Both the position numbers and the translations under genes were made by a program. A stretch of DNA of 64,000 nucleotides from Caenorhabditis elegans (lineage: Eukaryota; Nematoda; Chromadorea; Rhabditida; Rhabditidae): NCBI RefSeq assembly GCF_000002985.6, contig NC_003283.11, forward strand, positions 7,130,001 through 7,194,000, in the 5' to 3' direction. The notes beneath the pieces are model-generated. The model had not been told where the DNA came from and made no database searches. It saw nothing but the letters and a program-made list of their open reading frames with translations. Positions 4,263 through 62,615 of this stretch are shown here, in pieces. The number at the start of each line of letters is the position of its first letter. Position 1 is the stretch's first letter.

Positions 4263-5682
4263 ATGGAAAATGTACATACAATTTCCCACAACTCCCTTCT
4301 GACTATCAAAGAGTGTTTGATAGAGTCTTTTATGACACTTTTGTCTTTAAAATCAATGAGAATTCACATTTTCTTTGCAATATCCCAAAATGTTTTATTC
4401 GGAGGAACTTCGGGGTTTGATGTAGGACTAATTAGTCGCTATGTTCCAAACACGTTTACTGAAACTGAACCGTAAGTGAGAAAATGTTTTGCTAGTTAGT
4501 TGAAACCAAGTTTAAATAAAGAAAGTATGTAGTGCATTTATTTCTTGTCTACTTAACAAGTTTTGAGATATTCGCATTTTTTAAAGAATTTGTTACGTTT
4601 AGAACTTTATGTAGACTATTTCGTGTAGAAAATCAATATTGATGGAATGCTTCATTAAAAAAAAAGAGATTTCCATAAATTTCAGAAGTCAAAAACTGAA
4701 AAAATTTAACTGTGTCTCATTTTGGTCTGATTACTTAGAGAAAATTAGTATTCGAAACCCAAACGTACATGATTAATCCCTCTTCAACTTATCAGGATTT
4801 TTAAGATTTTCCCCTACTGCTCAAAATGGCGCTCGCACAATGGACAGTGCTCATATATTTCTAACGGAGTTACTTGGATTTGGTTGGTTGAACTCATTTT
4901 TGAAAATTGAATATTTAAATTTAACCAGGAAATTTCACATCCTCTGAGCGTGGATTTTTTGTTGTGGAATATCAAAAATATCCGGTTATCATAAATCAAG
5001 CGGAGTACTATTGGGGTGCGTCATTTCATCCACCGCTGAAAAATGGAACTTATGGTTGCAAGATTCCGCTGAAATGGCTTGTTGAAGCTTCACATACTAT
5101 GGTTTATGGTGTTTTAAGTTTATTAATCAGAAATATTTGTTACAGGGGAAGTTTCAATACCGTACTCATCATTCAAAACAGAAGAAAGAAGTATCAATAG
5201 AAAAGTTTTTGAAAATGGTTTTTTGTTTTCTGTTATTGATGTTTTTTAGTTTTAATTGTTTCAAATTACTCGAATTTTATAAATTCAGATTCGTTTTCAT
5301 AACAACGCGGAACCATCAGAAATTGCTTGGTCTTGTATGTCCCCAATCTCTCGTTGCTGTGGTATCGGATGTTGCCCCAAAACTTCAAAGTCTCAATCGG
5401 AAAGTATTTTCCATAGTGTCTTTGGTTATATGTGAGTTCTTAGAAGATACTCTAGATATTTAAAATTCACAATTCAGGTGTGGTGGTTTCATGTTCCTGT
5501 GTTGTCTTGTTCTTCTTCTCTCACTTGTCATGTTTCTGTGCAATGACGTATGGCATCGTTACATCCCGTGGTTTCCATCATCTCCAAGACCAACGGCAAC
5601 TCCAAGAAGTGAGACTCACGAGATGCAAGAATTGAATCCGTCAACTCACAGATCTCCGTCGAGATTGCATTTGGCTGTTTGA
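4263..5682 (+). CDS. CX-module single-pass membrane protein (model uncertain at 5' end)
   Basis: Probable secreted or membrane protein with a nematode CX module. The proposed exons are 4263-4471, 4686-4747, 4929-5108, 5146-5204, 5289-5431 and 5478-5682, which stay in frame (858 nt). The last four are well supported. They encode YYWGASFHPPLKNGTYGCKI, then EPSEIAWSCMSPISRCCGIGCC (the Cys-rich signature), one strongly hydrophobic segment (FMFLCCLVLLLSLVMFL) and a Ser/Pro/Thr-rich cytoplasmic tail ending LHLAV. The first exon could instead start at Met 4356 (MRIHIFFAIS), which would serve as a signal peptide. The 4686-4747 exon rests only on phase and a weak GTATTC donor. Function unknown; the CX assignment is from memory of the family pattern. 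Confidence 0.55.
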
Positions 5683-6326
5683 ATTACGAAAACTTCAAAA
5701 TGATTATACATTCACAATTAAAAGAACACATGAAAAATGAATAAATGTTTTGTTAACCTGAAATCAGTACAATGTAATAAATCTCAAAGTTTTACAGGAA
5801 TATCAAAAACAAGTTATTTCGAAAACAGCTAAATTTATTCATAAGTTTTCCGTTTTTTTTTCCTTAGTCATTCCAAACTATTAAACTACGAGGAAAACTG
5901 TTAATTAACTTGGACGGGTAGCCGATGAATTATGTACTTTGTAATCGGCAAAGTCCGGGAACCCATTTTTACACTCCCCTTGTAAGTAAATTAGTATTTC
6001 TTGACGTGCATATGTTTCAAGTTTCCAAGAAAATCATCCTACAATTTTTTGAACTTTTGGTAAAAATATGATCTTTGAAAAGATGTTAGAAAATAGACAA
6101 CTCGCCAGAACGGATGCAGTGATTTGAAAATTCAATTTTTCTGCTGTTCTGTTCTAATTACTTCGATTCAATTATTTGATACGAAATTCGATGAGGAAGT
6201 GATGAGTTTCACGTACTGGTACTTGCACTAAGCATACACTTCTGTAGATGAAGTTCTTTTTTAGATTGCTTAATCAACAAAACAATGTTCATTCGTGTGA
6301 AAAAAAATAACTTACACTCCAAAAAA
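5683..6326. other. intergenic, no gene seen
   Basis: AT-rich spacer between two convergent genes. An ATGAATAAATG sequence near 5740 could be the polyadenylation site of the CX-module gene. Nothing else is recognisable. Confidence 0.6.
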
Positions 6327-8417
6327 TTATCCAGAAAGATTAACAGCTGCAGGTTGTGATGATTTTATTCGAGAAGTTGAGTATGCTTCGCCAACAGCAT
6401 TTCCCCGCTCATTTCCTCTGATGATATCTACAATATTCTCCACTAATAGTAAGTAAATGGTAAGGCTTAGGAAAACTCACTCAAAATAGTGACCCTGAAT
6501 TCGCGAATGATAAAAATGAGAATTAGTGGGTCAAGACCTGGATAGAGAAATGAGCAAAAAACGATGAAGTTTGCATTGGCATTCAGGTTGATGTCGAAAA
6601 AGGGAGCGATGAACATGACACCAGTTGGGATGTACATAAATATTGATGGAACAAGGGTCTGGAATTTTTTGTTGTATCACCAAAAGTTATGAATGTGTTT
6701 TTTTGAAGTTCAGCTATAATACTTTTAAAATTGCGTGATTTTTGTAATAGTGGACCTGTACTAACTTGAAATACAAGTGCCTTAAACAATTGTCTATGCA
6801 GGTGACGTGTCCTATCAGATGCTCCACGATGCTCACGAATCGTCCACCATGTAGAAAATCCGCAGTAAAACACAACTACAAATGTCATTGACTAAAATAT
6901 ATTTTGTTTTTTCTTTCTTTTTCTCTGCAAATCTACCATAACGAAGTAGTGTACAAAGCAGCCAAGCAAATTTTTTATGTAGATGTGACGCTCCCCATTT
7001 TCATATTGATACTGCAAAATATTATATGTTTTGATTCTAGTTTAAACTAAAACTCACGTATACGTATGCGATATAAGATACATTTTCTTTTTTGATCACC
7101 TCGTAGTGTGTTTTCAGAACATATCTGGAAAGAAAATTAACGTGATTTCTTGGAAAGCGAATGAATATTCACGTACGTAACTGCTGCTTCAGTGTACTCG
7201 GTGTCTGGGTACAAAAAGTAAGAAACACTTGCCCACGCAGTCACAGGAATCGAACACATCAAAGGCCACAGTAAAAGATGCGGAAGGTTAAACAAGCGTA
7301 GCAGATTCGGTCTAAAAATATTGCTCAGATCATCAAATTTTAGTCTTTACAAGTGGTTGCTATCTTGAACCTTACTTGCAAGCGGCAAAGTACCGATACA
7401 CAAAGTGTACCGCAGACAGGACAAAACTCGTGGCAAAACAAGCACAGTAGAAAGCAGAGTTGATTTTACCAAGGCGAGTTGAGTAATCGAAGCGTTTCCG
7501 AGAAATCAGAAAGAACGTCGTGTTTTCGATATGCATTATCTGGAATTGAAAGGTTGGTGTCAAAATCTAAGCAGTTTAGATGAAAAGTATGATTAAAGAA
7601 AAGTGCATGTTCCTTTCTTTGTGAAAACAGAAAGCCATTTTGCCAAATGTTGGGTATACTGTACATCTAGATAATTTATAACTTTTAGGTATAGTTTATA
7701 TAGAGTTTTACAGATTTTTACCATTGAAAATGAGCCCAAAAATTTTCAAACGGGAAGCGCATTTAATTTTTGAGATCACTTGTTCGAGGTAAGTCTGAAA
7801 GATCAGATGTATATACTTGTTTTTTAATGTCGCTTTATGAGTTTTCACTCTGGGTACCATGTTCTCCAAATTTCAAAATATCCGGTCTTTTTATTTGTGT
7901 TTTTTCACCGTAAATTGATAATAAACGGGAACCAGGCCTTCCGTTATCCGGAAAAGCCTGACACAGGACGTCCAATTCAGTCTTGTTTCCCAGTTCTAGT
8001 TATAAATACTTGACTTTTTCTCTTGAATCTACTGTACTCTCATAGCTCTTAATTATGGATCTAAAGTTATAATAAGTAAGTATGTATTGAGTTCTGCTCA
8101 TTTAAGACACAAACTCCAAAGTACTCACAAACAAAAATTTACCAGTACGCTCCAATCTTCCTGACAAGAGTCTATAATTATTTGCCCATACAAGATTTGT
8201 CATAATTGCCAAAATTACTTACTGGTCTCAAAATAGATTCAACGATTGCATAAAAGATTGAGAAGAACGAGAAGAAGCTCATCAAGTATTTGTACGTTCC
8301 CAACGTTTTTCCACGTGTTCTAATCAGCCCCAGTAGAATGATGTTGATGGAGATCGTGAGAGTGAATCCTACCATATCGGCAGCATCCACGAGGGCCAAC
8401 CATAATTGACCAGACAT
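6327..8417 (-). CDS. str-family chemoreceptor
   Basis: Predicted seven-transmembrane GPCR of the nematode Str family. Eight exons: 8417-8223, 7539-7376, 7311-7177, 7124-7058, 7011-6937, 6891-6766, 6658-6481 and 6442-6327. They sum to 1056 nt (351 residues), the normal length, with every splice phase matching. Family landmarks appear in order: LGTYKYLMSFFSFFSIFYAI in TM2, AVHFVYRYFA at the end of TM3, HRQLFKALVFQ before TM6, YPGLDPLILIFIIREFR in TM7 and a short cytoplasmic tail. The first intron is long (about 680 bp). It appears intact. A second str gene lies at 29.7 kb. Confidence 0.85.
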
Positions 8418-15655: not shown

Positions 15656-17470
15656 TCATTCAGTTTTTCTTTTTATCAAAAAGATATCAAATAAAGACTG
15701 TACTAATTTCGTTACTACAAAAACTACAAATGTCAGTATAAAAACACAAATGGCTGCGACGTCAAGCAAGAAATATTCAACGAAAGACATTTTTCTCGAG
15801 TATGGATCCAGTGATGGTAGACGCCCAAATCTAGAACTTGAATAATAATTTTATCTTAGTAAAATATAAAAAACCAACCTGGCTGCATATTCAGCATGTT
15901 TAACCATCATTTCTTTCGGTTTAATTGGCTGATTCTCAAGCTGTTCTGCTAATTTCTGAGCATTTTTTGCATATGAAGAATCAAACAAAATTGCTTGAAA
16001 AGCTTCAATAATTTTCTCAGACTTTCCCAGATCATATTTCGATAGCTCGATAGATCCATTGTGACGGACAAGCATTTTAGTATTTCTCATTTGGTCGAAT
16101 AGTTGTGGGCACTAAAATATTACAATTTTATAGATTTGAATAGTTTTGACATACCAAGATAGCAGGTTTACCCAAGTAGCTGAGTTCAGTGATACTACCA
16201 AGTCCGGCGTGAGTAAGGAAAGCAGAGAGACGGGAGTCAGCTGAAATAGAATAACTGAATTTTAGTTTTTATGTCTTGAATAACCGAAGGAATACAAACT
16301 TACCAAGAAGAGCAGTTTGTGGAACCCATTTTGCAAAATGAATATTTTCAATTCCTTTTGCGAATTCGTCAGAACTATCATCTTCATACTTCCAAATAAA
16401 TGTTACATTTTTGAACTTTTCCATTGCATTTTTCAATGCTATTTTATTTTTGAATGGCATATCCTTTGAGTACAACATTGATCCAAATGACACTAACATT
16501 GTTTTTTCTCTCAACTTGAGAATTTCTGACCATGTTTCATCAAGTTTTTGACTTCTCAATTCATTTGAATCAACTGATATTCCTCCAATTTGAATTGTTT
16601 TTGTGAGAGTTGGCCTTGGAAAATCAACAAATGGATTAGAGTTGAGGAATACAAATGATGCCTCGGGAACGATAGATCTTATATCAATTGGATTGTATGG
16701 AGGTTTGAAAGATCTATGTGTGGGGTATCCAATCATAAAATCAAAATATGGAACCATGAATGCATTGAATGCTCTTTCAGTTATTGATAGTTTATCACCA
16801 AATGGAGATAAGCAGTCTGAAACTACACTTGGCATAACTGGTTCACCAATTTCTACTGCCAATGCAGTGTCGTGTGCAACAGATAGAGATGGAATAAATG
16901 TTGGGATTTCCAGATAATCCATCAATGCTGAAAATAAAATATCTGGCCTGTTAGATATTAAAAAGCTTACGATAGGCTGAAAAAATAAATGCCTCGAAAA
17001 TGATAACATCGAATTTCCGTTTCTTCAAATCATTCAGAATTTCGATATTGTCCTTCATCACTGTTCCCTGCTCATTATACATTTTTTGAAAAATCCGAAC
17101 AACTGTGATAATTTCTGTGGCCGTTGAGTCTTCAGTCCAATACCTGACAAAATCTCCTGTACTCATTTGTCTTCCATATTCTTTCAGTTTCTTCGAAGGT
17201 TCCATGTAAACTACATCTTTCGTTGATTTTGTATAATTAAAGTTTCGGTATTTTTCGACAATTATTGGTGTGAAAAATGCCTGAATAAAAGTGTCAATTG
17301 ATTAATTTCTGATTTGAAAATCGTACCACGTTGTGACCAGCGTCTGTTAAAGAATCTGCAATTGTTGCAAAGAACTTTGAATGGCTATGAGCAAACAATG
17401 GGCAGAATACTAGAAAATTAAATGAAGAAACATTTGCATAAAGCGTAAATAATAAAGCTAGCAGGAGCAT
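15656..17470 (-). CDS. UDP-glucuronosyltransferase (ugt family), 6 exons
   Basis: Predicted ER UGT of 523 residues. Exons: 17470-17327, 17280-16971, 16927-16304, 16240-16155, 16111-15879 and 15830-15656. Signal peptide MLLLALLFTLYANVSS, then FNFLVFCPLFAHSHSKFF with the presumed catalytic His. The large third exon (624 nt) runs from LMDYLEIPTFIP to WVPQTALLG, and the donor signature is THAGLGSITELSYLGKP. The C-terminal anchor follows RFGRLPSLDPYSRKMSFVEY. Exon lengths match the plus-strand UGT at 27.3-29.1 kb exactly. Positions 16207-16823 match that gene without a mismatch by eye, intron included, while the flanks differ. Confidence 0.88.
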
Positions 17471-18687: not shown

Positions 18688-20686
18688 TCACTCAGTTTTT
18701 ATTTTCACCAAGAATCGTCTACATAGAAACTGTACTACTCTCGTTAAAACAAAAACTACACATGCCAGAACTAAAACACAAATGGTTGCAACGTCAAGCA
18801 AGAAATATTCAACGAAAGACATTTTTCTTGAATATGGATCCAGTGATGGTAGACGCCCAAATCTAAAACTTTATAAGATTTTTAATCCAAAAACAGAATG
18901 CAAACCTGGCTGCAAATTCCGCATGTTTAACCATCATTTTTTCTGGTTTAATCGGCTGATTCTCGAGTTGTTCTGCTAATTTCTGAGCATTCTCCGCATA
19001 CGAAGAATCAAACAAAATTGCTTGAAAAGCTTCAATTATTTTCTTAGAATTTCCCAGATCATATTTCGATAACTCAATTGATCCATTGTGACGGACAAGC
19101 ATTTTTGCATTTCTCATTTGATCCGCAAAGAGAGGGCACTGGAAACTTGCCCTAATTTCTTTGGATTTGAACAAGAGAAACGTACCAAAATTGATGGTTT
19201 GCCCAAATAGCTGACTTCATTAATACTACCCAGACCAGCATGAGTGAAGAAAGCTGACAGACGTCGATTAGCTGAAACTTAAAATAATATGAAGTCGGGT
19301 TTGTTAATCACAATTAATATTTAAAATTAATACAAAATTAATACATCGAGCAATTAGAATTACAAAAATACAACAAGTTTGAGTTTATTTGAAAAACTTT
19401 TGATTTTTCTACATTTTTATTCAAGACTAATAGAAAATACGGTAACTTGAAATACGGAATAAAAACTTACCCAAAAGTGCAGTTTGTGGTACCCATTTTA
19501 CAAAATGAATATTTTGAATTCCTCGTGCAAAGTCCTCAATGTCATTTCCTTCATATTTCCAAATGAATGTAACATTTTTGAATTCTGTCATAGAATTTGC
19601 TATTACTTTTTTATTTTCCAATGGCATATCTTTCGAGAAGAATACTGATCCAAATGACACCAACATTGTTTTTTCTCTCAAATTGAGAATATCTGACCAT
19701 TTTGAATCCAATTGTTGACTTTTCAATTGGTTCAAATCGACTGTAATTCCTCCGATTTCAACAGTTTTTGTAAGGGTTGGCCTGGGAAAGTCAAGGAATG
19801 GATTTGAATTCAAAAACAAAAATGACGCTTCCGGTTCAATTGTTCTTATATCAATTTCAGTGTATGGAGCTGATAAAGTATTGTGAACCGGATAACCGAG
19901 AACAATGTCGATATATGGAACAGCGAATGCATTAAATGCTCTTTCCAACAATGAAAGCTTGTCACCAAACGGAGAACACACATCTGAAACTACACTAGGC
20001 ATCACTGGTTCTCCAATTGCCTTTGATAAATAAACATCGTGAGTGAGTGATAACGATGGAATGAATGTTTTGATGTTGAGGTAATCCATTAGAGCTGGAA
20101 TACATTTTGACTTTACGTTTTTTTTTAAATTTCTTCTAGTTTGAGTCACTACTAATTTCAGGTATTTGCTGGATCAAGAGTTGGATCATTTCTCTGCTAT
20201 ACTTGAAATAACCAAATTTTTAATGAACCGTTTTGAAAATTTTTATCAAACAAAAGCGTCATAATTAACTAAATTTGAATAAGCCATTAAGTCTAATAGA
20301 GCATCGATACAAGTCTGCTGCTCCAACGTTATAAAACGACGAATCTTCTGTCCAAAATCTGGAAAAGTCTGCAGACTCCATTTGTTCGCCGTATTCCATT
20401 AGTTTTTTCGGCGCATCCATGTGAACTACATCTTTCGTCAATTTTGTGTAGCTAACATTTCGATATTTTTCGACAATTGTTGGAGTGAAAAATGTCTGAA
20501 AAAAAGTTTGAATTTATTGTTTTCTGCTATGAAAATTCTTACCACATTATGGCCAGCGTCTGTTAGAGCATCGGCAATTGTCGCAAAAAATTTGGTGTGA
20601 CTGTGACCAAATAGAGGACAGAAGACTAGAAAATTATAAGAGTAGGTGCTGTAGATCAAAGACAAGATCACCAGAAAGGTACGCAT
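18688..20686 (-). pseudogene. UDP-glucuronosyltransferase with a truncated second exon
   Basis: A 6-exon ugt paralogue of the gene at 15.7-17.5 kb. Exon 1 (20686-20543), exon 3 (20094-19471, 624 nt), exon 4 (19271-19186), exon 5 (19138-18906) and exon 6 (18862-18688) are intact and match the sister genes in length. Exon 2 begins normally at 20495 (TFFTPTIVEKYRN) and reads to RFWTEDSS near 20337. There the homology stops: the roughly 50 residues expected next (ending FDVIIFEA..SAYR) are absent and the frame soon hits a stop. A donor such as A|GTTAATT near 20283 could splice in phase to exon 3, but the product would lack a conserved part of the acceptor-binding domain. Probably a pseudogene or a shortened, altered enzyme. 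Confidence 0.6.
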
Positions 20687-21446: not shown

Positions 21447-23131
21447 TTACATGATCGATTTTTTTCTTGATTCTTCACTTCCGTGATTGGCAACCTGCCG
21501 GCTGATAAACTCATCGGCAATTGTTTTTCTATCGTAGACAAGACCAAGAACAGCTGCAGTATCAATAAGAACACGGGTCCAATTGTATATCAATGAATAT
21601 TCAGATGCTCTGTAGTCTTGTGGGAATGTGTGGTGGAAATTGTGACCTCCTTCACCAACGGCTACAACTGTGGTAAAGACGTTCTCAACGGCGGAAACAG
21701 AAGTATCGTATGGCTTCCAACCAAAACTGAAAATTTTAATTTAATAATTTCAAGCTTGATTTATTTTTCTAACGATGAAAAGAAAACAGTTTTACCGTAA
21801 ACTTAAAAACAAAACATTTGTATTTTAAAAACTTTAATTTAGACCAAGTCATCACAGAAATTTTGACAGCGAACTTACCTATTTTCTTTGTTTTGGTCCC
21901 GCTAAACACTTGAAGATTTTAAATTTAAATTTTTGTTTTGCACTGGGTAATAAATTGTAAAACGACCCCGAATCTATAAAAATAAAGTGAACTTACTAGT
22001 GAGCAGCGCTGTTGATGCACCAAGTGGCGTGAAGTGTGAAACAATAACGGAATGTTCCAGCTACGTAAAACGCAATGAATGCTGTCTCCTTCCAGAAATA
22101 AACGGGGATAATTGTTGGAAGAATGAAACAAAACAAAATGACCAGTGGGAAATAGTGCCTGAAATAAAAAATTGACATATTTTTTATTTATTTCAACCTA
22201 ACTTACTTTCTCTGGAATACAAGAACTGGATCGCTAAATAGATCAGATAGGTCGAGTTTGCCTCCATGCTCCTTAACTTGTGGATGCTTACGCACAAGAA
22301 GCCATCCCATGTGAGTGAAGAAGAATCCACGGGTGGTGTTATGTGGATCAGCATCTGTATCAGTCCACTTGTGATGGCAACGATGATCACGAGCCCATTC
22401 AATGATGTCGTTTTGAAGAGCAATGTTGTTCAAGAGCATCAAAAAGATTCTCATTGGTGTGGTTGCCTTGTATGATTTATGAGACCAGAGACGATGGGCT
22501 CCAGCTGTGATACCGAATCCTGAGAACACATAGAGAGCAAATGCTGAAAATTAAATATACAACTGGTTTTATCACTCGTTTATCACTAATCGAAATATTT
22601 GTTTCTGTTCAATTGCAATCAGTTAAAAAAAATAAACTTTTCATTCAAAATGTACAGACATCGTAAATGTTTCTTTTCATATACAGTTTTTTGGTTTTCA
22701 AAATCCAGTAGTTTATTTCTCTATTAGTGTGACAAGTAATACTAGTTTCCGGACACAAAAATAATGCTTGGGGGAACTTACAGAAGACGGCCGTTTGCCA
22801 TTTAGCATGGAAGACAAGCTCGTAAAGTCCAATGGCTGCGGCGACGTGCAGAGCAGCAAAGAGAGCCACGTTACGCCACACTATTTCCATTTTGTATGGA
22901 ATCTGGAATAAGGGAAATAGATTCTGAATTCAGTTAGCTCATGGTATTGTTTAATTTTTTTAAAATTTCATATTGAGAATCTAATCTGAATTTCGCTCTC
23001 AAAAACTAGCTTACTTTTTTGCTCTCCTCTTGGACTTGCAGGACTTCATTTGGATCCATGAACAGGTATTGAGAGTCCAAACCATCTTTTTCAATCTTCT
23101 TGGCAATGCTCGCGCGAGTTTTTACCGTCAT
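21447..23131 (-). CDS. fat-7: stearoyl-CoA (delta-9) fatty acid desaturase FAT-7
   Basis: ER membrane desaturase that introduces the delta-9 double bond into stearoyl-CoA to make oleoyl-CoA, using O2 and cytochrome b5. Exons: 23131-23015, 22902-22782, 22543-22207, 22158-21997 and 21726-21447, summing to 338 residues, the length I recall for FAT-7. The start MTVKTRASIAKKIEKDG is preceded by a splice acceptor, so there is a 5' UTR exon or a trans-splice site. The three iron-binding His boxes are present: HRLWSH, HRCHH and HNFHH. Two pairs of hydrophobic segments flank them in the usual order. FAT-6 is nearly identical; the choice of FAT-7 rests on the neighbours (ugt cluster, cpsf-2) as I remember the chromosome V map. 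FAT-7 is known to be controlled by NHR-49 and SBP-1; that regulation is not visible here. Confidence 0.9.
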
Positions 23132-24563
23132 TTTACCGTTTGTTTTCTGAAAAGTATTAATATTTACGATAATTAGTGAAGAGGTCAGGAAAAGCATAAC
23201 AAGTTATTCTGAATGGCTGAAGATGAGAGAACAAAAATTCAAATATGAATTCTGTTAAACGGAGTTCAAAAGGGCTTTTATAATCAAACATAGATCTGAT
23301 CACTTTCTTAGTTGAGAAATGGGCGGAGTAAAGTTTTCTGCTACACTACGCAATAGAAGACTCTTTGCCCTCCGAATCGTTTGAAATCATTCCATTTTTT
23401 CAACGTGTAGCAGAATTGTTGCGTAAGGAATAGGAACAAATGAAAAATTAAATGCGAAGATGATAAATTGTGATTTTTTCAGTAAATCTGTTTTTATTTC
23501 GGCAAATCAATCATATATCACTTGCCAAGTCGAATACTTCGTGCTACACAAACTTGTACAGACTTCAAATAATTTTCGTGTATGTCCAGTCGTACATTTT
23601 AAATATTGTTATTTTTAGCCGATTGCTATCTATCATTTTCTTTAAAATGCCTAACAAAGTCTCTGAAAGCCTGATAGGAAACAATGAAAACAGATAATCT
23701 GATGTGATGTTTGATGTAAAATCTGAAAATCCTCGCTTCTGGCTTGGTATGCAACTCAAAAAATATTGTTTTCTTTAAATGTAAGATTTTGGTGCATGAT
23801 CACTCCAAACACCCATGGAAATACTCATAATTGTTTCAAACAACCTCAGGATTTATGATAGACCTAGTAAGCCAGTTAAGCCAAACCAGATGCAAGACTA
23901 ATAGGAAAAGTATGATATTTCAATTCCAGTAGTTGTAACCATTCTTGCTGACAAGTATTTCAATGGGGCGAGCGATTTAGAAAAAAAAAGTCGGCTGATA
24001 ATTGCTACAAATCGGAAAATGGTCAGCTACAAATGAGAAGAAGCAAACTACAGGTAATACGTGTAGCTTGATCAATAATGGACAAAGATAAGAATAAAGT
24101 ATTGATCCATATAGAATTAAAAAAATTATATTTTATCACACAAGAATTTCCACCAGACGGTTGGTGGCAAAATTTGAAAAATCATAAAACAGTTAAACGA
24201 ATGGAAAAAAACACAGTGTTTCCTAAACTACACATAACTTTCAGATAATAGTCCAAGTAGTCATTCTTTACATGTTTTAGTTTGTGATGTTTTTCTTATT
24301 ATTCGGACCACTTGGACATTTCATTAGTAGACCCGTGCGCAATGCACATTTAAAACCCAATAGATGAGAATAGGATAACCGGGTCAGCTGTAGGTCTGTA
24401 TAGCTTTTATTATGTGTGGTGTGAGTATTTTCTACATTATTATTATTATACATACATGAGATGTTCATATGATTCAAACAAATTTAATAAATGCTGTATA
24501 ACCAATTGAAAAAATTATTTATTTTCAAAACTTTTTTATCTACAATCAAGTTCATAAATCCAT
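23132..24563. other. intergenic, includes fat-7 upstream region
   Basis: About 1.4 kb between the fat-7 start and the 3' end of the upstream hydrolase gene, so it must contain the fat-7 promoter. A TGATAA (GATA-factor type) site is at 23461-23466; one such match is expected by chance at this AT content. No coding support. Confidence 0.5.
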
Positions 24564-26176
24564 TCACAATTTGTTTTTACCCGTCCCTTCCGCATCAAAA
24601 ATCTTTTTCACAACCTCTGCCACCAAATCGGCGCGTTTCTTGTTTTGAAAATGAGTATCCTTTGCCACAAAAACAGAAGCTCCCTTTTCAGAGTCAAACG
24701 TCTTCAGGATTTTTCCATAATCATCAGTTGGAATTTCCGAGTCGTAATCCTGAAATTAAAGCGGTAAGTTTATTAGCTTTAAGTAACATCTAAAATTTGA
24801 AAACTCACGAAATGAACTAAATCCCTGTACTCTTTCAGCGCCTCAAACACAATTTCATCCTCACAAATGAGATCCTTTCCGGCAAAAATAATGAAGGTCT
24901 TGGTCTGAAATTAGTTCGAAGTTAGCTCAAAACTTGAAATGAGACATACATCTTGCTCACGGAGCTTGTGAATGTTCGGCAGAGTCGTCTCAAGGCCACA
25001 ACGAATAACTGAACGCAATGCGCTGATCGCCTCCTCTCCGTCTTGAACTTTCAGACCAAAGGAGAGGTACACTGAAATATGATAAATATTTTTTCAATAA
25101 ATAACTACGTTTATTTACAATTTTAATACTACATGTAAAACTGTGTCAGATTTTTCACGCTATTATGAAAAAAGTTATTTTCACCCACTTCTATAGATCA
25201 TCGCGTCGGCCAGAAACTTTGGCAGCATATCATAAACCCATTCGATGCGCTCAAGTCTTGACAACGGACGAATCGATTTATGCTTCCTCAATCCTAATGG
25301 ATTCATCATTACAAGTCCATGAGCCGGAAAGGTTGTTGCCGTCATAAGAGCATTCTCGCATCCTCTGCTGTGTGCAAGGAATATCACTTTTCCGGAAAGA
25401 TCCGCGGACTTCAAAAAAGCGTCTGTATAGTTTTGGCGCTCCTTGTTGCAGTGTCCTTGACCGGGGTAACCTGAAAATGGAAACAAATGTTAAAATTAGA
25501 ATGTCTGTATTCACTGACCATCAGTTTGTTTGAATCCTGGATAGTTGAGGCCAATGAATCTGATTCCAGCTTCATCAAATTGTTGTCTAATGTACTTGAA
25601 ATCGTTGTGAGATCCAGGAGAGCCATGGAAAGCAACTACAGTACCCACTGATGAGCCGGTGGAAAGGGAATCCTGAAATGCAGATGTTATAAATAAATTT
25701 CGTTTGAAATTTGGACAAAGTATGTATGATATTTTATGCTCTTGTTTTTTATTGATTTTTTCCAAACTTTTAGTTTTTCAAACTTTCTTTTTCAAATTAG
25801 TTATTGATGTTCGATGGAAATGAAGTTGTTTTGTAAAAAAAATAATTTTTAAAAAACACATTATCTAAAATACAAAAATTCAAAGCACCGTAGAAATAGC
25901 AACTAAAAAATTTTTAACGTAATCTTAAAGACTATCTGTATTCAAAATAATTTTAGTGGTTTTTGAAAAAAAATTTGAAAAAAAAAACACACAATCAAAT
26001 GCAAAATACCCTACCTCATAAACAGCCTGAACCTCAACCTGCTTCCCATTTTCCGCTTGAAACTTTACAAGTTTTCTGTGCATATTCGGCTCGGTCATCT
26101 TGCTAGCAAAACTTCTGAATTGTGATCCAAGAACGACTCTTTTCAAGGCGTTACTACTAAACTGCAGGGCGGCCAT
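24564..26176 (-). CDS. alpha/beta hydrolase (DUF1057-type)
   Basis: Predicted serine-hydrolase-fold protein of 333 residues, substrate unknown. Exons: 26176-26015, 25672-25519, 25470-25189, 25071-24950, 24904-24809 and 24749-24564, all phases matching. HGSPGSHNDF (about residues 69-78) is the oxyanion loop, AHSRG (about residue 134) is a variant nucleophile elbow with Ser in the centre, and KDTHFQNKKRAD near the C-terminus supplies the likely catalytic His. The first 25 residues lack acids and are rich in Ser, Arg and Ala, which could be a mitochondrial targeting sequence. The family assignment (Pfam DUF1057, a nematode-enriched hydrolase group) is from memory. Confidence 0.8.
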
Positions 26177-27311
26177 GAGAGTAAACGATAGAATGGCCGA
26201 ATGAACAGACCACTTTTTTAGAATGAATGATCATCTCCCTCCGTGTAATTGGATTCTTATGTGTAGTCTTACGTATAGTGTCAAACAGCTGGCGAGCAGG
26301 GCAGCCCGTGTTCTCGTTATTACGTAAACGTTTTATATTTTGTATAATATTCAACGTTTTCATGTGAAAAAAATTTACTGATTTAATTATTGGAACTTAT
26401 GAAAAAAAGATGTCACAAAAACAGCAACACTAAAATATGGAAAACTGATCAGTAGTGCTTTTCAAAATTTGCTCTAATGGGTGAAGGCATATTGCAATTT
26501 GTGAAATCCCCAAAAAGTTCCTAAACAGTATAAAATCCCGTTTAGAATCTGTGAAAATACTTTCCTTTAGAGCCTTTTTCCTATAAAAATTTGAATTTAT
26601 CTAAGTGCACAAAAACGTTTGGGAAATGACAAATTATTGCGTTCTTAGACGACTAACTACAAAATTCATTATTATCATGCCGGCATTAATTCTCAATCAT
26701 TCAATCTTTTTTTAACGATCATATAAAAATTTAATAACCGATGAAATTTTTGTTGAAGTCTAATCTTACTTTTCAGTTATTTTTCAGGTTCCAACTAGTA
26801 CATTATTGAAAAAATACGTTGGACATTTTTTTCACAAAATTAAATTATGATGTACCGATGAACTTTTTTTACAATCTTCCGCATATATTGTCAGACAGAG
26901 TGGGAAGGAGTCCAATTCTTTTGGTAGATCATAAATAAACTCTATGAAACAGTTTATTTACAGAGCTCCATAGTAGTCCCTGTGATACTGTGCAACGGGA
27001 GTGGATCAGCTAAAACACATTACATGTTCAATTGAAATTTTAATACTCGGTGCTCAGATTTATTTAATTTTCACAAGTATCCGTGGTTTGTGAGAGTATT
27101 TGAACATACTTTTTCCAGACTCTTCTCCTTGTACGACAACATGAGACAAAAAATAGAAGACAGAAAATCTATGATAAGACAATTAAATACCTATGATGAC
27201 CCGCACAACACCCTTCCAAGTATCTATCAGTTTTCGCCCGCTATTTCGTATTTTTTCGTATTGAACATTTGGTTTGATTCTTTATCATCTGTTCATGGAA
27301 AGTATCATAAA
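26177..27311. other. intergenic, divergent promoter region
   Basis: Spacer between a minus-strand hydrolase and a plus-strand UGT, so it should carry both promoters. An open frame continues upstream of the UGT start (from 27090), but the signal peptide begins at 27312, so I do not extend the gene. No other coding support. Confidence 0.55.
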
Positions 27312-29120
27312 ATGCGTCTGTTGTTTATATTATTTTTATTTTTTGGAAATGTGTCATCATTTAATTTTCTAGTATTTTGCCCATTGTTTGCTCATAGTCA
27401 TTCGAAATTTTTCGCCACTATCGCTGATTCATTAACTGATGCTGGTCATAATGTGGTATGATTTTCACTGCAAAACGATGTAATTCGAAACTAGTATTCA
27501 GACATTTTTCACTCCAACAATCGTTGAAAAATATCGAAATGTTAGCTACACAAAATCAACGAAAGATGTTGTCCACATGAAGCCATCAAAGAAGCTGAAA
27601 GAATATGGAGAACAAATGAGTACAGGAGATTTTGTCAGGTATTGGACAGAAGACTCAACGGCCACAGAGATTATACCGGTTGTTCGGATTTTTCAAAAAA
27701 TGTATAACGAGCAGGGAACAGTGATGAAGGACAATGTCGGAATTCTAAATGAATTGAAGAAACGGAAATTCGATGTTATAATTTTCGAAGCGTACATATA
27801 CTCTGCATATCGTAAGTTATTTCGAGAATTTTAATTTGAAGTAAGTTTTCAGCACTTATGGATTATCTGGAAATTCCAACATTTATACCCTCTGTCTCTG
27901 TTGCTCACGATACTTCTTTGGCAATAGAAATTGGTGAACCAGTTATGCCAAGTGTTGTTTCAGACTGCTTATCTCCATTTGGTGATAAACTATCAATAAC
28001 TGAAAGAGCATTCAATGCATTCATGGTTCCATATTTTGATTTTATGATTGGATACCCCACACATAGATCTTTCAAACCTCCATACAATCCAATTGATATA
28101 AGATCTATCGTTCCCGAGGCATCATTTGTATTCCTCAACTCTAATCCATTTGTTGATTTTCCAAGGCCAACTCTCACAAAAACAATTCAAATTGGAGGAA
28201 TATCAGTTGATTCAAATGAATTGAGAAGTCAAAAACTTGATGAAACATGGTCAGAAATTCTCAAGTTGAGAGAAAAAACAATGTTAGTGTCATTTGGATC
28301 AATGTTGTACTCAAAGGATATGCCATTCAAAAATAAAATAGCATTGAAAAATGCAATGGAAAAGTTCAAAAATGTAACATTTATTTGGAAGTATGAAGAT
28401 GATAGTTCTGACGAATTCGCAAAAGGAATTGAAAATATTCATTTTGCAAAATGGGTTCCACAAACTGCTCTTCTTGGTAAGTTTGTATTCCTTCGGTTAT
28501 TCAAGACATAAAAACTAAAATTCAGTTATTCTATTTCAGCTGACTCCCGTCTCTCTGCTTTCCTTACTCACGCTGGACTTGGAAGTATTAATGAACTAAG
28601 CTACTTGGGAAAACCTGCCATTTTGGTATGCCCGTATAATTTTAATTTGAAAAATTGTAATATTTCAGTGTCCACAACTGTTCGACCAAATGAGAAATGC
28701 AAAAATGCTGGTCCGTCACAATGGATCAATTGAGTTATCGAAATATGATCTAGGAGATTCTGAAAAAATTGTCAACGCTTTTCAAGCAATCTTATTTGAT
28801 TCTTCGTATGCAAAAAATGCTCTAAAATTAGCAGAACAGCTCGAGAATCAGCCAATTAAACCCAAAGAAATGATGGTGAAACATGCAGAATTTGCAGCAA
28901 GGTATGTGTTTTCTAACTGATGGCAACATAATTTTGAAATTATAGATTTGGTCGCTTACCATCACTGGATCCATACTCGAGAAAAATGACGTTTATTGAA
29001 TATTTCCTTATTGATGTTGCAGCTATTAGTATGGTTGTGTTGATAGCTGTAGTTTTTGTGATAACGAAAATGTTTAAAATTCTATGTAACAAAACTTCAG
29101 TAAAGGGAAAAATTGAATAA
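27312..29120 (+). CDS. UDP-glucuronosyltransferase (ugt family), 6 exons
   Basis: Predicted ER UGT of 523 residues, the same length as its inverted sister at 15.7-17.5 kb. Exons: 27312-27455, 27502-27811, 27853-28476, 28540-28625, 28669-28901 and 28946-29120. Signal peptide MRLLFILFLFFGNVSS, AHSHSKFF with the presumed catalytic His, the large exon from LMDYLEIPTFIP to WVPQTALLG, donor signature THAGLGSINELSYLGKP, then DQMRNAKMLVRHNGSIELS and a C-terminal TM helix with a basic tail. Its positions 27957-28573 match the reverse complement of 16207-16823 without a visible mismatch, intron 3 included, while the sequence on either side differs at many sites. Confidence 0.88.
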
Positions 29121-53047: not shown

Positions 53048-55134
53048 TTGAAATCAATCACAAACAGACACCATTGTACTATTTTTCATTGTTTTCAGGT
53101 GACGTGAACAGGCAAAAATAAGTCGATTATTTATATCATCATGTTTTTTGTAAACATTTGAGGCTCGGCGGAAGTTTTTTTTTTAAATTTTTTTTTGGAA
53201 GATCAAAAAGTCGAAGCATTTTTTGTTCGACATTTCAAATGTATACGGATTCTCATGGGAGCTCAATGAGCCGATTCTAATTTTTCTGATAAGAACCATC
53301 TAATCGTTTTCGTAGACTGATTACGAGTTCGTGGTAATGTCTAAAAATAGGATTTTGCACCGGAAAAGACACCTTTTTACATACATGAGTTTTGATCTTT
53401 TTTCTGTTATTACGGGAAAACACAAATTTCTGAGAATGCGTATTGCACAACATATTAGACGCGCAAGATATCTCACAGCAAAAACTACAGTAACCCTTTA
53501 AATGAGTACTGTAGCGCTTGATTTTTGAAATGAATCGATATAATATTAAAATTAAAAAGAGGCAAATTGAATATCGATGTCACTAATCGAAAAGAATAAT
53601 CTATTTCAAAAATCTAGCCCGTGAATCGACACAAGCGTTACAGTACTCATTTAAAGGGTTACTGTAGTTTTCGCTACGAGATATTTTGCGCGGCAAATAT
53701 GTTGCGAAATACGCATTTTCAAAAGTTTTTGTTATCGTAACAAAAACGGGTTTAAATCAGTTTTCAAAGTAATATTATCACAAACACACTTATTTTTAAT
53801 GAGAAGTACTAATTTGAATAGGAACAGAGAAATGGGAAGAAAACAAAAAAATATTATTATCTATTTGTTTAAGGATAACATTATGGGGGTATTACCTTTT
53901 TTTTTTCATTTTTATTTCAGAATTAGATTCAAGACTATTGTTCTGTTTTTTATTCAATTTTTAAACTTGAACCGTGCTTTAGGATGGGTCTCGGCACGAG
54001 AAGCAACTCGTAGAAAAGCGAGAACTGGAACCCCGAAGACTTTTGTTTAACAGTTTGCAGTTCAGCCTTCTTACTGTCTTGAGAACTCTCATATTGACTC
54101 AATTCCAAACAAAGTTGCCTGCACATGTTCAGGTGTAAAATGTTAGCGTAGATCATATTTGAATATATTTACATGCAATTTTTTAAATAACTTTGTTGTG
54201 ATTGTTTGCAAGAGTGGCCATGAGTACAAAAGGATCGATAGTAGCTATTTGAGACTATTTTTAACTGGATTTTTTAACTGGTTTATTTATGAAAACTATT
54301 GTGTTCGTTGTCTTGTGTTTTTTTGAATGTGAGTTTGTATAAGGTTACTGTACTTTGATTGAATAATGGTCCATAATTAGTTTTATAACCTCATGGGAAT
54401 TTCACTAAATCAGAGCATCTCAATTATTACAAAAGTTGAATGTAGTTGTAGCCGGTTTAGGTATGCACAGGAGTTTCTAATGTTTCTTTGCCACAACTAA
54501 CTTTATTAATATTCATATCTAGATACCAAATCTGGGAGTTCATATGTTTTTGACTCAGGTTTTTAGAGGAAAAGATCTGCAAACATTTTGCAACTTTGTG
54601 AAAGTTTAGTTAAGCTAGAACCAATATTTTGTATGTTAAAAGTGTTCTTATTAGTTTGTGACATATGCTTTTTTGAAATTTTTGAAAAACCACCCAAAAA
54701 CGCTTAAACTTTTGTCCGACATTTCATGAATATTTTGAGTGTACTTTGCTCAAAAGTGCGGTAGTTTCAGTAGAACAAACCAGTTCAAGGAAATGTTTGT
54801 CACTGAAAAGCGAATCATTTTACGTGACTCCACAGTAAACTACCCGGTCGGAAATTTTCGTGGAATTTTTTATTATTATTTATGAATTCACATCATTTTT
54901 AATATTCGATTACTTCAAGATTTAATCCGGGACCAATTTAATCGTTTCCCTACTTTTTCGGTATGTTCGCTCTTTTGTCTTCTTAAGTTTTGTTGAAAAC
55001 TCTTACTTTTTCAGTAACGATAAGAGCTACTTCACACTCGCCACCATTCTCCTCCCATTCGAGACGACAGACTAAAACAAAGGTCTATAAAAAGAAACGA
55101 TAGTGGTCAGTTTTCTCTACAGTAACCCCTGATC
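53048..55134. other. intergenic with one palindromic repeat element
   Basis: AT-rich spacer between cpsf-2 and the phosphate transporter. Apart from the palindromic element at 53407-53740 I see no structured feature and no supported ORF. Confidence 0.55.
53407..53740. repeat. palindromic repeat element, copy 1
   Basis: An inverted-repeat element of about 330 bp. The left arm has CTGAGAATGCGTATTG, CGCGCAAGATATCTC and ACTACAGTAACCCTTTAAAT; the right arm has the complements (ATTTAAAGGGTTACTGTAGT, GAGATATTTTGCGCG, ATACGCATTTTCA). The middle is AT-rich with ATCGATG-type sequence. Nearly identical to the copy at 57633-57970. No coding capacity; it resembles a non-autonomous foldback or MITE-like family. 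Confidence 0.8.
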
Positions 55135-58100
55135 ATGTTGAACGTTCTACTGGATGTTGTCACGACTACACTGGCAAGTGCCATTAATTTGGAGGATTTT
55201 AGGGTTAGTTGTTTTGCCATATTTTGGAACTCCAGTTTCATTGCAAAAAATATTACAGCACTGCTTCCTGTGGGCCTTAATAGTCGGAATATGTCTTGCA
55301 TTTCTTCTTGGCTTTGGAATGGGCGCCAACGACGTGGCAAACGCGTTTGGGACATCAGTTGGATCAAAGGCGCTCACACTGTTTCAGGCATATTGCCTTG
55401 CGACAATATTCGAGACACTTGGTGCAGTTCTAGTTGGATATAATGTGATAGACACTATGCGAAGAGGTGTTGTGGATGTGGCGGTTTATAACAATTCGGC
55501 CGGTGATTTTATGGTCGGACAGGTCGCTGTTCTTGGTGGAACTGCCACGTGGCTTCTCATCGCCACTTGCCTCCAACTTCCAGTTTCGACAACTCATGCA
55601 GTTGTTGGTGCGACACTTGGATTTTCGATTGCTTGTAAAGGATTTCAAGGGATTCAATGGATGAAGGTTGTGAATATTGTGGCATCCTGGTTTATTTCAC
55701 CGATTTTCGCTGGAACTGTCTCATTGATACTTTACTTGTTTGTGGATCATGTTATTCTGAGAACGGTGAGTACGCTTTTGCTCGAGCTCTGAAAATGTAT
55801 TCCAGAGGTGCGACTGCCCATTTTGGAGGAAAAAATTGCAATTTAATAAGCTGGAGTCTTTAAACATTCTTGAAAATTTTAGTTGTATTCTTCTGTGACG
55901 TTCCAGCATATTGGAATATTCCGAGTAATTCAAAACAAACTTCTCATTTTCCGAAGTCTAACATTAAGCGAGAGAGGAATGTCTAGCCCTGTACCCTTGT
56001 CGGAGAGCTTGTTCAATTGTGATATTTTCAGTCAAACCCCGTGGCCAATGGTCTCATGTGGCTGCCAATTTTCTACTTTGCGTGTCTCACATTCAACATG
56101 TTCATGATCTCCTATCAAGGATCAAAAGTGCTTCATCTCTCGAATGTTCCTCTCTGGGCGGCTATCGTAGTCAGTTTGGGAGCTGGAATTATTGCTGCCG
56201 CAGTTTGTTATTTTCTTGTCAACCCAAGGATAAGAAAATATATTGCAAGTGAGTATCTTGTAAGACACATCTTAAATGTAGGTAGTGTTTTTTCAGAAGG
56301 AAAAGAAGCTCGCGAGTCTCCCACATCATCAGTTGTGATATCAGTGACTGGAGATCCAGAACTTGATAAGGTTGCAATTAGAAGTGAATCTACTACAACA
56401 AATGCCTCGAATAGTTGTGATTCTCTACAGACACCTTCACCATCGGAACCACAAGGAAGTAAGGATATTGAAATAATTTTAAGCGTTACTGGCGATGTTT
56501 TATACATCAGACCTTCATTACTGTATTTCAGAAATTCGAAAATTCTTCAAATGGCTCTTCCCGGATAAGTCAAGAGTTGAAAGCGAGGACACATTGAGAA
56601 TGTTCACATCAGTGCAGGTCTTGACAGCTTGTTTCGCAGGATTTGCTCACGGAGCCAATGATGTTTGGTAAGAGTTTTCAGCGAAAAATACCCTAAAATT
56701 CAAAACTGACCGGTCTTTTTTTGTACAACTTCTTATCAATTTGGTTTCGTAATTTATTTCTTTGCTTATCAGAAAGTTGATCACGAGCCAAATTCGACCA
56801 TTTTTCTCGGAGTGCGTTTCCGGGGAAAGGAAGCGAATTAATATTTGTGAACTTGGGGGGGAGGTGCTGATTATCGATAACCTCTAATAATTAAACACTC
56901 CCAAATGAAAAATTACTATTTAGAAAGCGCTCTATGGCGAAATGAAAACGCTCCGCCCATAAACGTTGGGTTTCGTTATGTGCTGGCGGCAATGATTGCA
57001 GTTGTCAATGATTTTTAGGTCGAAACTTATGAAATAAAAAATCGTTATTAGCTTACAAATACACTAGCATTTTAAAATCATTATTTAAACATTAGGCGAA
57101 AATAATTGAAAACTTGTGAATTTACTATTTTGTCGCCAGTTCCTAACGAGACCTAACGTTTCGGGGCGGAGCGTTTTAATATTACTGTGGAGCGCGCTTG
57201 CTCTTCGATTTGAAATGGTAAATTTTTCTGCGTCCACATAATAATACATTCTCTAATCTTTTCGGCAATATAATTTGGGAAAAATAGAAATTATTTAAAC
57301 GTGCTTACTGCGCTTATTAGTAATTTTTCTCAAAACCAACTGTCAAAAATAAAATTATCTTCATTTCCAGTAATGCAATTGCTCCGCTTGTTGCTCTCAT
57401 CGCTGTCTACCGTGATTTCGATGTTTATCAGAAAAAGGAGACTCCGATCACTGTCCTACTCTATGGAGTTTTTGCAATTTGCGTCGGTTTGTGGTGTCTT
57501 GGACACAAGGTAAGTGTCAATCAGATTCCTCGAGCATTATCTACCGTGGGATGACCGAAAAAAATTGATACTGATTTAATCGGATTAACAGAAAGATCAG
57601 AAGAATAGTAACTCTTGATTTTTAAAAATTTTATATTACGGGAAAACACAAATTTCTGAGAATGCGTATTGCCTAACATATTAGACGCGCAAGATATCTC
57701 ACAGCAAAAACTACAGTAACCCTTTAAATGAGTACTGTAGCGCTTGTGTCGATTTTTGAAATGAATCGATATTATTAAAATTAAAAAGAGGAAAATTGAA
57801 TATCGATGTCACTAATCGAAAAGAATAATCTATTTCAAAAATCTAGCCCGTAAATCGACACAAGCGCTACAGTACTCATTTAAAGGGTTACTGTAGTTTT
57901 TGCTACGAGATATCTTGCGCGTCTAATATGTTGCAAGATACACATTCTCAGAAGTTTTTGTTCTTATAATAATATTTTTACTGATTCTGAAATTCCAGGT
58001 AATTCGAACCGTTGGTACGAACATGAGCGAAGTCAATCCAGCATCAGGATTTTGTATTGAATTCGGAGCCGCTGTCACAGCTCTTTTGGCTTCTAAAATG

Positions 58101-60974: not shown

Positions 60975-61330
60975 ATTTAAAAAAAAAAAAAATAATAATA
61001 ATAAATTTTAACAAAACCATGGTGCCCGGTCTCGACACGACAAATTTTTGTTAAATGCAAGCGAGGCGCGCCTTTAACAAGTGCTGTAATTTTAAACACT
61101 CGTTTCTGCGGAATTTTCAGCTATTTTTAAAATAGTTTTTTAAAAATACTTTTTCACAATTGAAATAACCCAAAAATTAAAAAAAACGTGAAAAAACTCT
61201 GAAAATCTAAATACGAAAATGCCACAGAAACGAGAGTTTTGAATTACAGTACTACTTAAAGGCGCACAGATGTGCGCATTTAACAAAAATTAGTCGTGTC
61301 GAGACCAGGTGTCGTAATTTTTGGCGGTAT
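60975..61330. repeat. palindromic repeat element, second family
   Basis: The arms GGTCTCGACACGAC (61028-61041) and GTCGTGTCGAGACC (about 61292-61305) are perfect complements. They are followed inward by AAATTTTTGTTAAATGC against GCATTTAACAAAAATT, then CTCGTTTCTG against CAGAAACGAG. A non-coding foldback element in the putative first intron of the phospholipase D gene. Confidence 0.75.
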
Positions 61331-62304: not shown

Positions 62305-62615
62305 CTTATAGCGGGAACACAAAATTCTGAGAATGCGTATTGAGCAACATATTTGACGCGCAAAATATCTCGTAGCGAAAACTACAGTAACTCTTTAAAT
62401 TGTTACTGTAGCGCGTGTGTCGATTTACGAGCTAGGTTTTTCCAAATAATGATCTAAAATTATTTTTTTATCGATAAAAAATTGAAATTAAACAAAAGGG
62501 GAAACTAATACGAAAAAAAAATTAATGAAAATGGAGCTTCCCTGTAAAGCGGCACTAGTGCTACAGTAGTCCTTTGAAGAGTTACTGTAGTTTTTGCTAC
62601 GAGATATTCTATACA
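62305..62615. repeat. palindromic repeat element, copy 3 (diverged)
   Basis: Related to the elements at 53.4 and 57.6 kb: it shares GAGAATGCGTATTG, AAAACTACAGTAA, TTACTGTAGCGC and GTTACTGTAGTTTTTGCTAC, but the centre and the right end differ strongly. An older copy of the same foldback family. Confidence 0.7.

Follow-up and report, generated by a model that had tools for sequence, protein, structure and literature searches.

The survey of Semple and Wolfe, as summarized in a review (PMC3966223), recorded 526 gene conversion events in 143 of 7,829 Caenorhabditis elegans gene pairs, with tracts that averaged 117 bp (range, 12-2,958 bp) and reached introns in 15%. According to the same source, conversion is commoner between close pairs, with a distance effect reported over 1-8 kb; same-orientation pairs have been suggested to convert more, an effect of orientation that the review deems unproven. 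In two inverted pairs of paralogues, hsp16-1/hsp16-48 (PMC3966223) and F44E5.4/F44E5.5 (PMC1803023), the copies are described as kept identical, and conversion was proposed. Recent conversion is also described for fog-2/ftr-1, paralogues on chromosome V with moderate silent divergence (28%).

The two UDP-glycosyltransferase (UGT) genes reported here, A and B, encode detoxification enzymes, and the 617-bp tract that they share belongs to this documented class, of which it is a clean example, long and of recent date. Like the tracts of Semple and Wolfe (1999), as the review presents them, it is an exact identity within diverged paralogues of one chromosome, has a size within the surveyed range, and includes an intron; it differs from them in length (617 bp, against the 117-bp mean), in the inverted arrangement of the copies, in their 11-kb spacing, and in the unrelated genes that lie between them. 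We counted two of these features against conversion, namely, a length several times the survey mean and an inverted arrangement spaced more widely than 1-8 kb, and on the account given in the review (PMC3966223) this orientation and spacing are on the less common side of known conversions. The two inverted pairs resemble A and B in arrangement and in maintained identity, but there whole genes are involved across short spacers (416 and 126 bp), whereas about one-third of A and B has been homogenised. The fog-2/ftr-1 pair resembles A and B in chromosome, recency, and moderate silent divergence; unlike them it is tandem, with tracts of 39-145 bp (Table 1 of the review), and conversion was observed directly in lines and isolates (PMC3966223). 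A literature search on C. elegans conversion, nematode UGTs, and the F10D2 and ugt names, which covered titles and the openings of abstracts, found no published report of the A/B tract.

Two divergent UGT genes and their neighbourhood

The window, that is, the whole 64-kb stretch of DNA that was analysed, presumably corresponds to bases 7,130,001-7,194,000 of C. elegans chromosome V; a tblastn search with B as the query located seven UGT-like gene regions in it. Splice sites of A and B were set by hand to the consensus, yielding an open frame in each gene, and the exon lengths are equal in the two (144, 310, 624, 86, 233, and 175 bp). When compared with PF00201 (UDPGT; Pfam cut-off, 19.5 bits), the A protein scored 169.4 bits (1.8e-49; residues 27-521) and the B protein 176.3 bits (1.4e-51; residues 27-517), which places both in this family, above the cut-off across most of the protein. 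The coordinates of these genes and of the features discussed below are listed in Table 1.

Table 1. Coordinates of the genes and tract copies (positions in the window unless a contig is named)
Feature	Position	Strand	Structure or basis
Gene A, UDP-glycosyltransferase	15656..17470	-	6 exons, 523 codons, open; hand-set splice sites and Pfam
Gene B, UDP-glycosyltransferase	27312..29120	+	6 exons, 523 codons, open; hand-set splice sites and Pfam
Tract copy in A	16207..16823	-	exon 3 16823-16304 (520 bp), intron 3 16303-16241, exon 4 16240-16207 (34 bp)
Tract copy in B	27957..28573	+	exon 3 27957-28476 (520 bp), intron 3 28477-28539, exon 4 28540-28573 (34 bp)
Paralogue C, UGT, outgroup in A/B comparison	18688..20686	-	tblastn and alignment
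Desaturase gene, A-B interval	21447..23203	-	ORFs only; limits approximate
Alpha/beta hydrolase (DUF1057) gene, A-B interval	24564..26230	-	ORFs only; limits approximate
L009, tandem UGT pair	contig 4, 6,075,500-6,084,500

A and B are divergent in orientation, and by their coordinates the tract copies are separated by 11,133 bp, in agreement with a preliminary description of this DNA that had placed inverted paralogues about 11 kb apart. Three genes lie inside the interval: paralogue C, the desaturase gene, and the alpha/beta hydrolase gene. Within the desaturase gene, the ORF at 22203-22550 matched PF00487 at 1.2e-5 and 25.6 bits, under the Pfam cut-off of 29.7, and the ORF at 21447-21740 gave no Pfam match; this gene is putatively fat-7, the name given in the preliminary description. 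The hydrolase ORF at 25181-25489 matched PF06342 at 4.2e-44.

We take ugt-41 to be F10D2.11. The map position listed for ugt-41, V:7161049 (PMC2907687), would, on unshifted coordinates, fall in the UGT gene at about 31-33 kb of the window and outside both A and B. F10D2.8 is listed as carrying an insertion in strain CB4856 (PMC4023591). Elsewhere in the window, interspersed repeat copies at 53408-53733, 57634-57962, and 62315-62448 are 86-94% identical and partly self-inverted, and are perhaps a small transposable element; an imperfect palindrome at 61025-61309 has 73% identity to its own reverse complement.

An identical tract within diverged paralogues

String comparison showed that the reverse complement of 16207-16823 is identical to 27957-28573 at 617 of 617 positions, and that this exact match is maximal, with no extension at either end; the flanking mismatches are AGTGTAG/AGTGTTG and CACGCCGG/CACGCTGG. 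The preliminary description had reported the mismatch-free match and its sharp limits, and the mismatches that it quoted are those found here at both ends; it had also placed intron 3 fully inside the tract, as is the case, with a length of 64 bp that we correct to 63 bp. The tract makes up about one-third of the gene pair and corresponds to codons 187-370. Genome-wide, among the best-scored of 17 matches, only the A and B copies match the tract at full length, and the next best is paralogue C, at 77% over 520 bp. The limits in Table 1 are first mismatches and not measured breakpoints, and the true breakpoints may fall a few bases within them, because mismatches occupy about 20% of the flanking columns. 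On the left, a single mismatch at 16824 is followed by 31 more identical bases (16855-16825), so that the left breakpoint could lie as far out as 16855 if this mismatch is a later substitution.

Past both ends the genes differ at many sites, as previously claimed, with mismatches at 239 of 1198 aligned columns. When identity was plotted in 20-column steps, 30 consecutive steps were at 100%, whereas elsewhere the values ranged from 40 to 100% and two adjacent steps were never both at 100%; the next longest mismatch-free runs are 36, 32, and 31 bp. The flanks have a dS of 0.74 on the 5' side and 0.68 on the 3' side (Sd, 56.8/121.2 and 44.5/99.2), and the four other introns are identical at 30/46, 20/43, 31/43, and 27/48 columns (65, 47, 72, and 56%). 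The tract itself carries no differences over its 115.7 synonymous sites, 436.3 nonsynonymous sites, and 63 intron bases, where divergence at the rates of the flanks would be expected to give about 53, 35, and 25, respectively; synonymous and intron sites have been homogenised along with amino acid sites.

A tract of this length is not predicted by the divergence of the pair. The 239 mismatch columns were shuffled over the 1815 aligned columns 100,000 times; the longest run had a mean of 42 bp and a maximum of 112 bp, and 617 bp was never reached. A GENECONV-style permutation of polymorphic sites in an alignment of the three paralogues, carried out with our own script and not with the GENECONV program that the preliminary description had proposed, identified an A/B fragment of 153 consecutive polymorphic sites that was reached by 0 of 3000 permutations. 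In the other 20 of the 21 UGT pairs that can be formed from the seven regions of the window, the longest same-sense exact match is 41 bp. Two outcomes named beforehand as speaking against conversion, an even identity along the pair and mismatches scattered through the tract, were both absent: identity is uneven along the pair, and the exact alignment contains 0 mismatches in 617 bp.

Gene conversion as the probable origin of the tract

As seen in this one genome, the tract very probably derives from one gene conversion between the two loci (interlocus, or ectopic, conversion), and a recent one. Near-identity lies in register within paralogues whose flanks are diverged on both sides, and we read this as the signature of conversion because silent sites and the intron are homogenised in register while silent divergence is high on either side. 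As far as an alignment can speak to it, copying itself is shown by the perfect in-register tract set against its diverged flanks. A uniform recent duplication of A and B is ruled out by the flank dS values, and the preference of the preliminary description for conversion over such a duplication holds, silent divergence being about 0.7 in either flank and zero in the tract. A fresh small duplication is disfavoured because the tract sits in register within older homologous genes, and the flank dS of about 0.7 suggests that the duplication that gave rise to A and B is older than the tract.

The event would have begun with a break or stalled end in the exon 3 to exon 4 region of one UGT gene, repaired by homologous recombination, for which the divergent paralogue, at a distance of about 11.1 kb on that chromatid or its sister, would have served as template; some 600 bp of the donor, including intron 3, would have been copied, and the event would have been resolved without a crossover. 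Break repair as the trigger, one event, and the non-crossover outcome are what we infer; a crossover would have left the interval between A and B inverted. No direction from donor to recipient can be read from paralogue C, since it is equally distant from both copies. The finding of 0 differences at about 169 silent sites sets a 95% upper limit of 1.8% on divergence since the event, which is 2.5% of the A/B silent divergence. At mutation rates of 1.8-2.7e-9, this corresponds to about 3-5 million generations, an upper limit on the age and not an estimate of it.

Replication template switching, in place of break-repair conversion, would leave an identical sequence outcome, and the inverted layout would allow switching within a strand; the flanking alignment bears no specific sign of it, and we give it a small but real chance. 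Assembly of the tract from several shorter, overlapping conversions is unlikely: the review cautions that long tracts can be compound (PMC3966223), and weaker signs of older exchanges are found at A, B, and C (see below), but with 617 bp free of mismatches every one of the events would have to be very recent. Such overlapping events would leave a sequence that looks just like the product of one. It is very improbable that one copy's sequence overwrote the other's during assembly of the reference; in length the tract is close to one Sanger read, but at the expected difference of about 18% (some 114 of 617 sites) reads from the two copies should be easily told apart, and A and B both remain open.

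Under gene conversion, about one-third of an enzyme pair became identical a long time after the genes had duplicated, and such an event misleads both the dating of genes and the trees of gene families. Because the identity extends over 617 bp, sequencing reads of lesser length, and RNAi directed at the tract, should be unable to separate A from B in this segment; variant calls there would confuse the two genes, and knock-downs there would affect both.

Paralogue C and possible older exchanges

Exons 1, 3, 4, 5, and 6 of paralogue C align at the same lengths as those of A and B; in exon 2, homology and frame are lost after about 20340, and C may be a broken gene or have a different splicing pattern. 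Compared with either copy over the exon 3 portion of the tract, C has a dS of 0.82 and a dN of 0.21, so this segment does diverge normally among paralogues. Between A and C, synonymous sites are saturated in exon 1, whereas dS is 0.93 in exon 3, 0.52 in exon 5, and, in exon 6, 0.29, where the corresponding values are 0.76 for A/B and 0.95 for B/C. This pattern suggests an older A/C exchange around exon 6.

In the GENECONV-style test on the full alignment, between 0 and 5 of 3000 permutations reached the A/C and B/C fragments; once the tract was taken out, the counts were 0 to 12. When the 3' part was analysed alone, the A/C fragments were reached by 128 and 25 permutations and the B/C fragments by 253 and 346 of 3000; for the 5' part alone, the counts were 2953 and 1007 for A/C and 4 and 0 for B/C. 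Over the gene as a whole, the permutations support exchange with C well; in the 3' part alone, their support is weak. We treat older exchanges with C as a lead only, for which the best support is the exon 6 dS of 0.29 between A and C against the saturated exon 1. A short A/B fragment in the 3' part, 16128-16094, was reached by 6 of 3000 permutations.

With the tract removed, the test also returned an A/B fragment in exon 2 (17185-16994; 0 of 3000), which contains an exact 16-site run (17073-17050; 4 of 3000). We do not accept this fragment as a conversion, because C is non-homologous there and so inflates the apparent likeness of A and B.

Exon 6 of A (15656-15830) and exon 6 of C (18688-18862) are far closer than the rest of the two genes. 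At the start of exon 2, B (27502-27549) and C (20495-20448) share a short stretch to the exclusion of A; counted from 27508, B and C match at 56 of 60 columns.

UGT pairs at other loci

Of seven other UGT loci that were compared, two, L009 and L012, contain two UGT genes, as judged by tblastn with B. At L009, positions 2332-2556 align with the tandem partner over 225 columns with one mismatch, whereas the whole pair differs at 371 of 1506 columns; the longest run, 161 bp, was reached by 0 of 20,000 permutations. Sd is 1.0/45.3 in this stretch and 24.8/41.7 directly beside it. The 225 columns correspond to B residues 241-313, within the A/B tract, and a further run of 113 identical bp corresponds to residues 352-388; the alignment is otherwise about 75% identical. 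The L009 pair is like A and B in having a near-identical stretch in the same part of a diverged UGT pair and unlike them in being tandem, with a shorter stretch that already carries one substitution. This overlap counts against the simplest reading of the A/B tract. It could reflect a shared exchange-prone UGT segment, although a sample of two pairs is too small to decide the matter.

The near-identity of the L009 pair in a segment that overlaps the tract, and the extension of the tract into the nucleotide-sugar domain (Pfam C-terminal glycosyltransferase models start near residue 333), would also fit strong purifying selection, on protein function or on an RNA element in exon 3 and intron 3, that held the segment identical since duplication, but the chance of this is negligible because silent and intron sites are unchanged, with 0 of the expected synonymous and intron differences, and because paralogue C has diverged to about 77% identity here; nor is the segment conserved across the family, since the L009 gene has only about 38% protein identity to B in the alignment that includes residues 241-313.

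With gene conversion as the preferred origin, a much broader picture can be drawn, to which as a whole we attach very little probability. The UGT pair flanking the desaturase gene would be a recurrent site of exchange, with the middle of UGT genes maybe exchange-prone in general and conversion ongoing among A, B, and C; the 617-bp inverted repeat might then give rise to an 11-kb inversion or to hairpin double-stranded RNA directed against both genes, likely enough for polymorphism in the wild.

In an exact-match comparison, the UGT pair at L012 contained no run above 39 bp. At L013, an inverted repeat of about 296 bp (5376-5671 and 6326-6620) is 99% identical between its arms, which lie about 650 bp apart.
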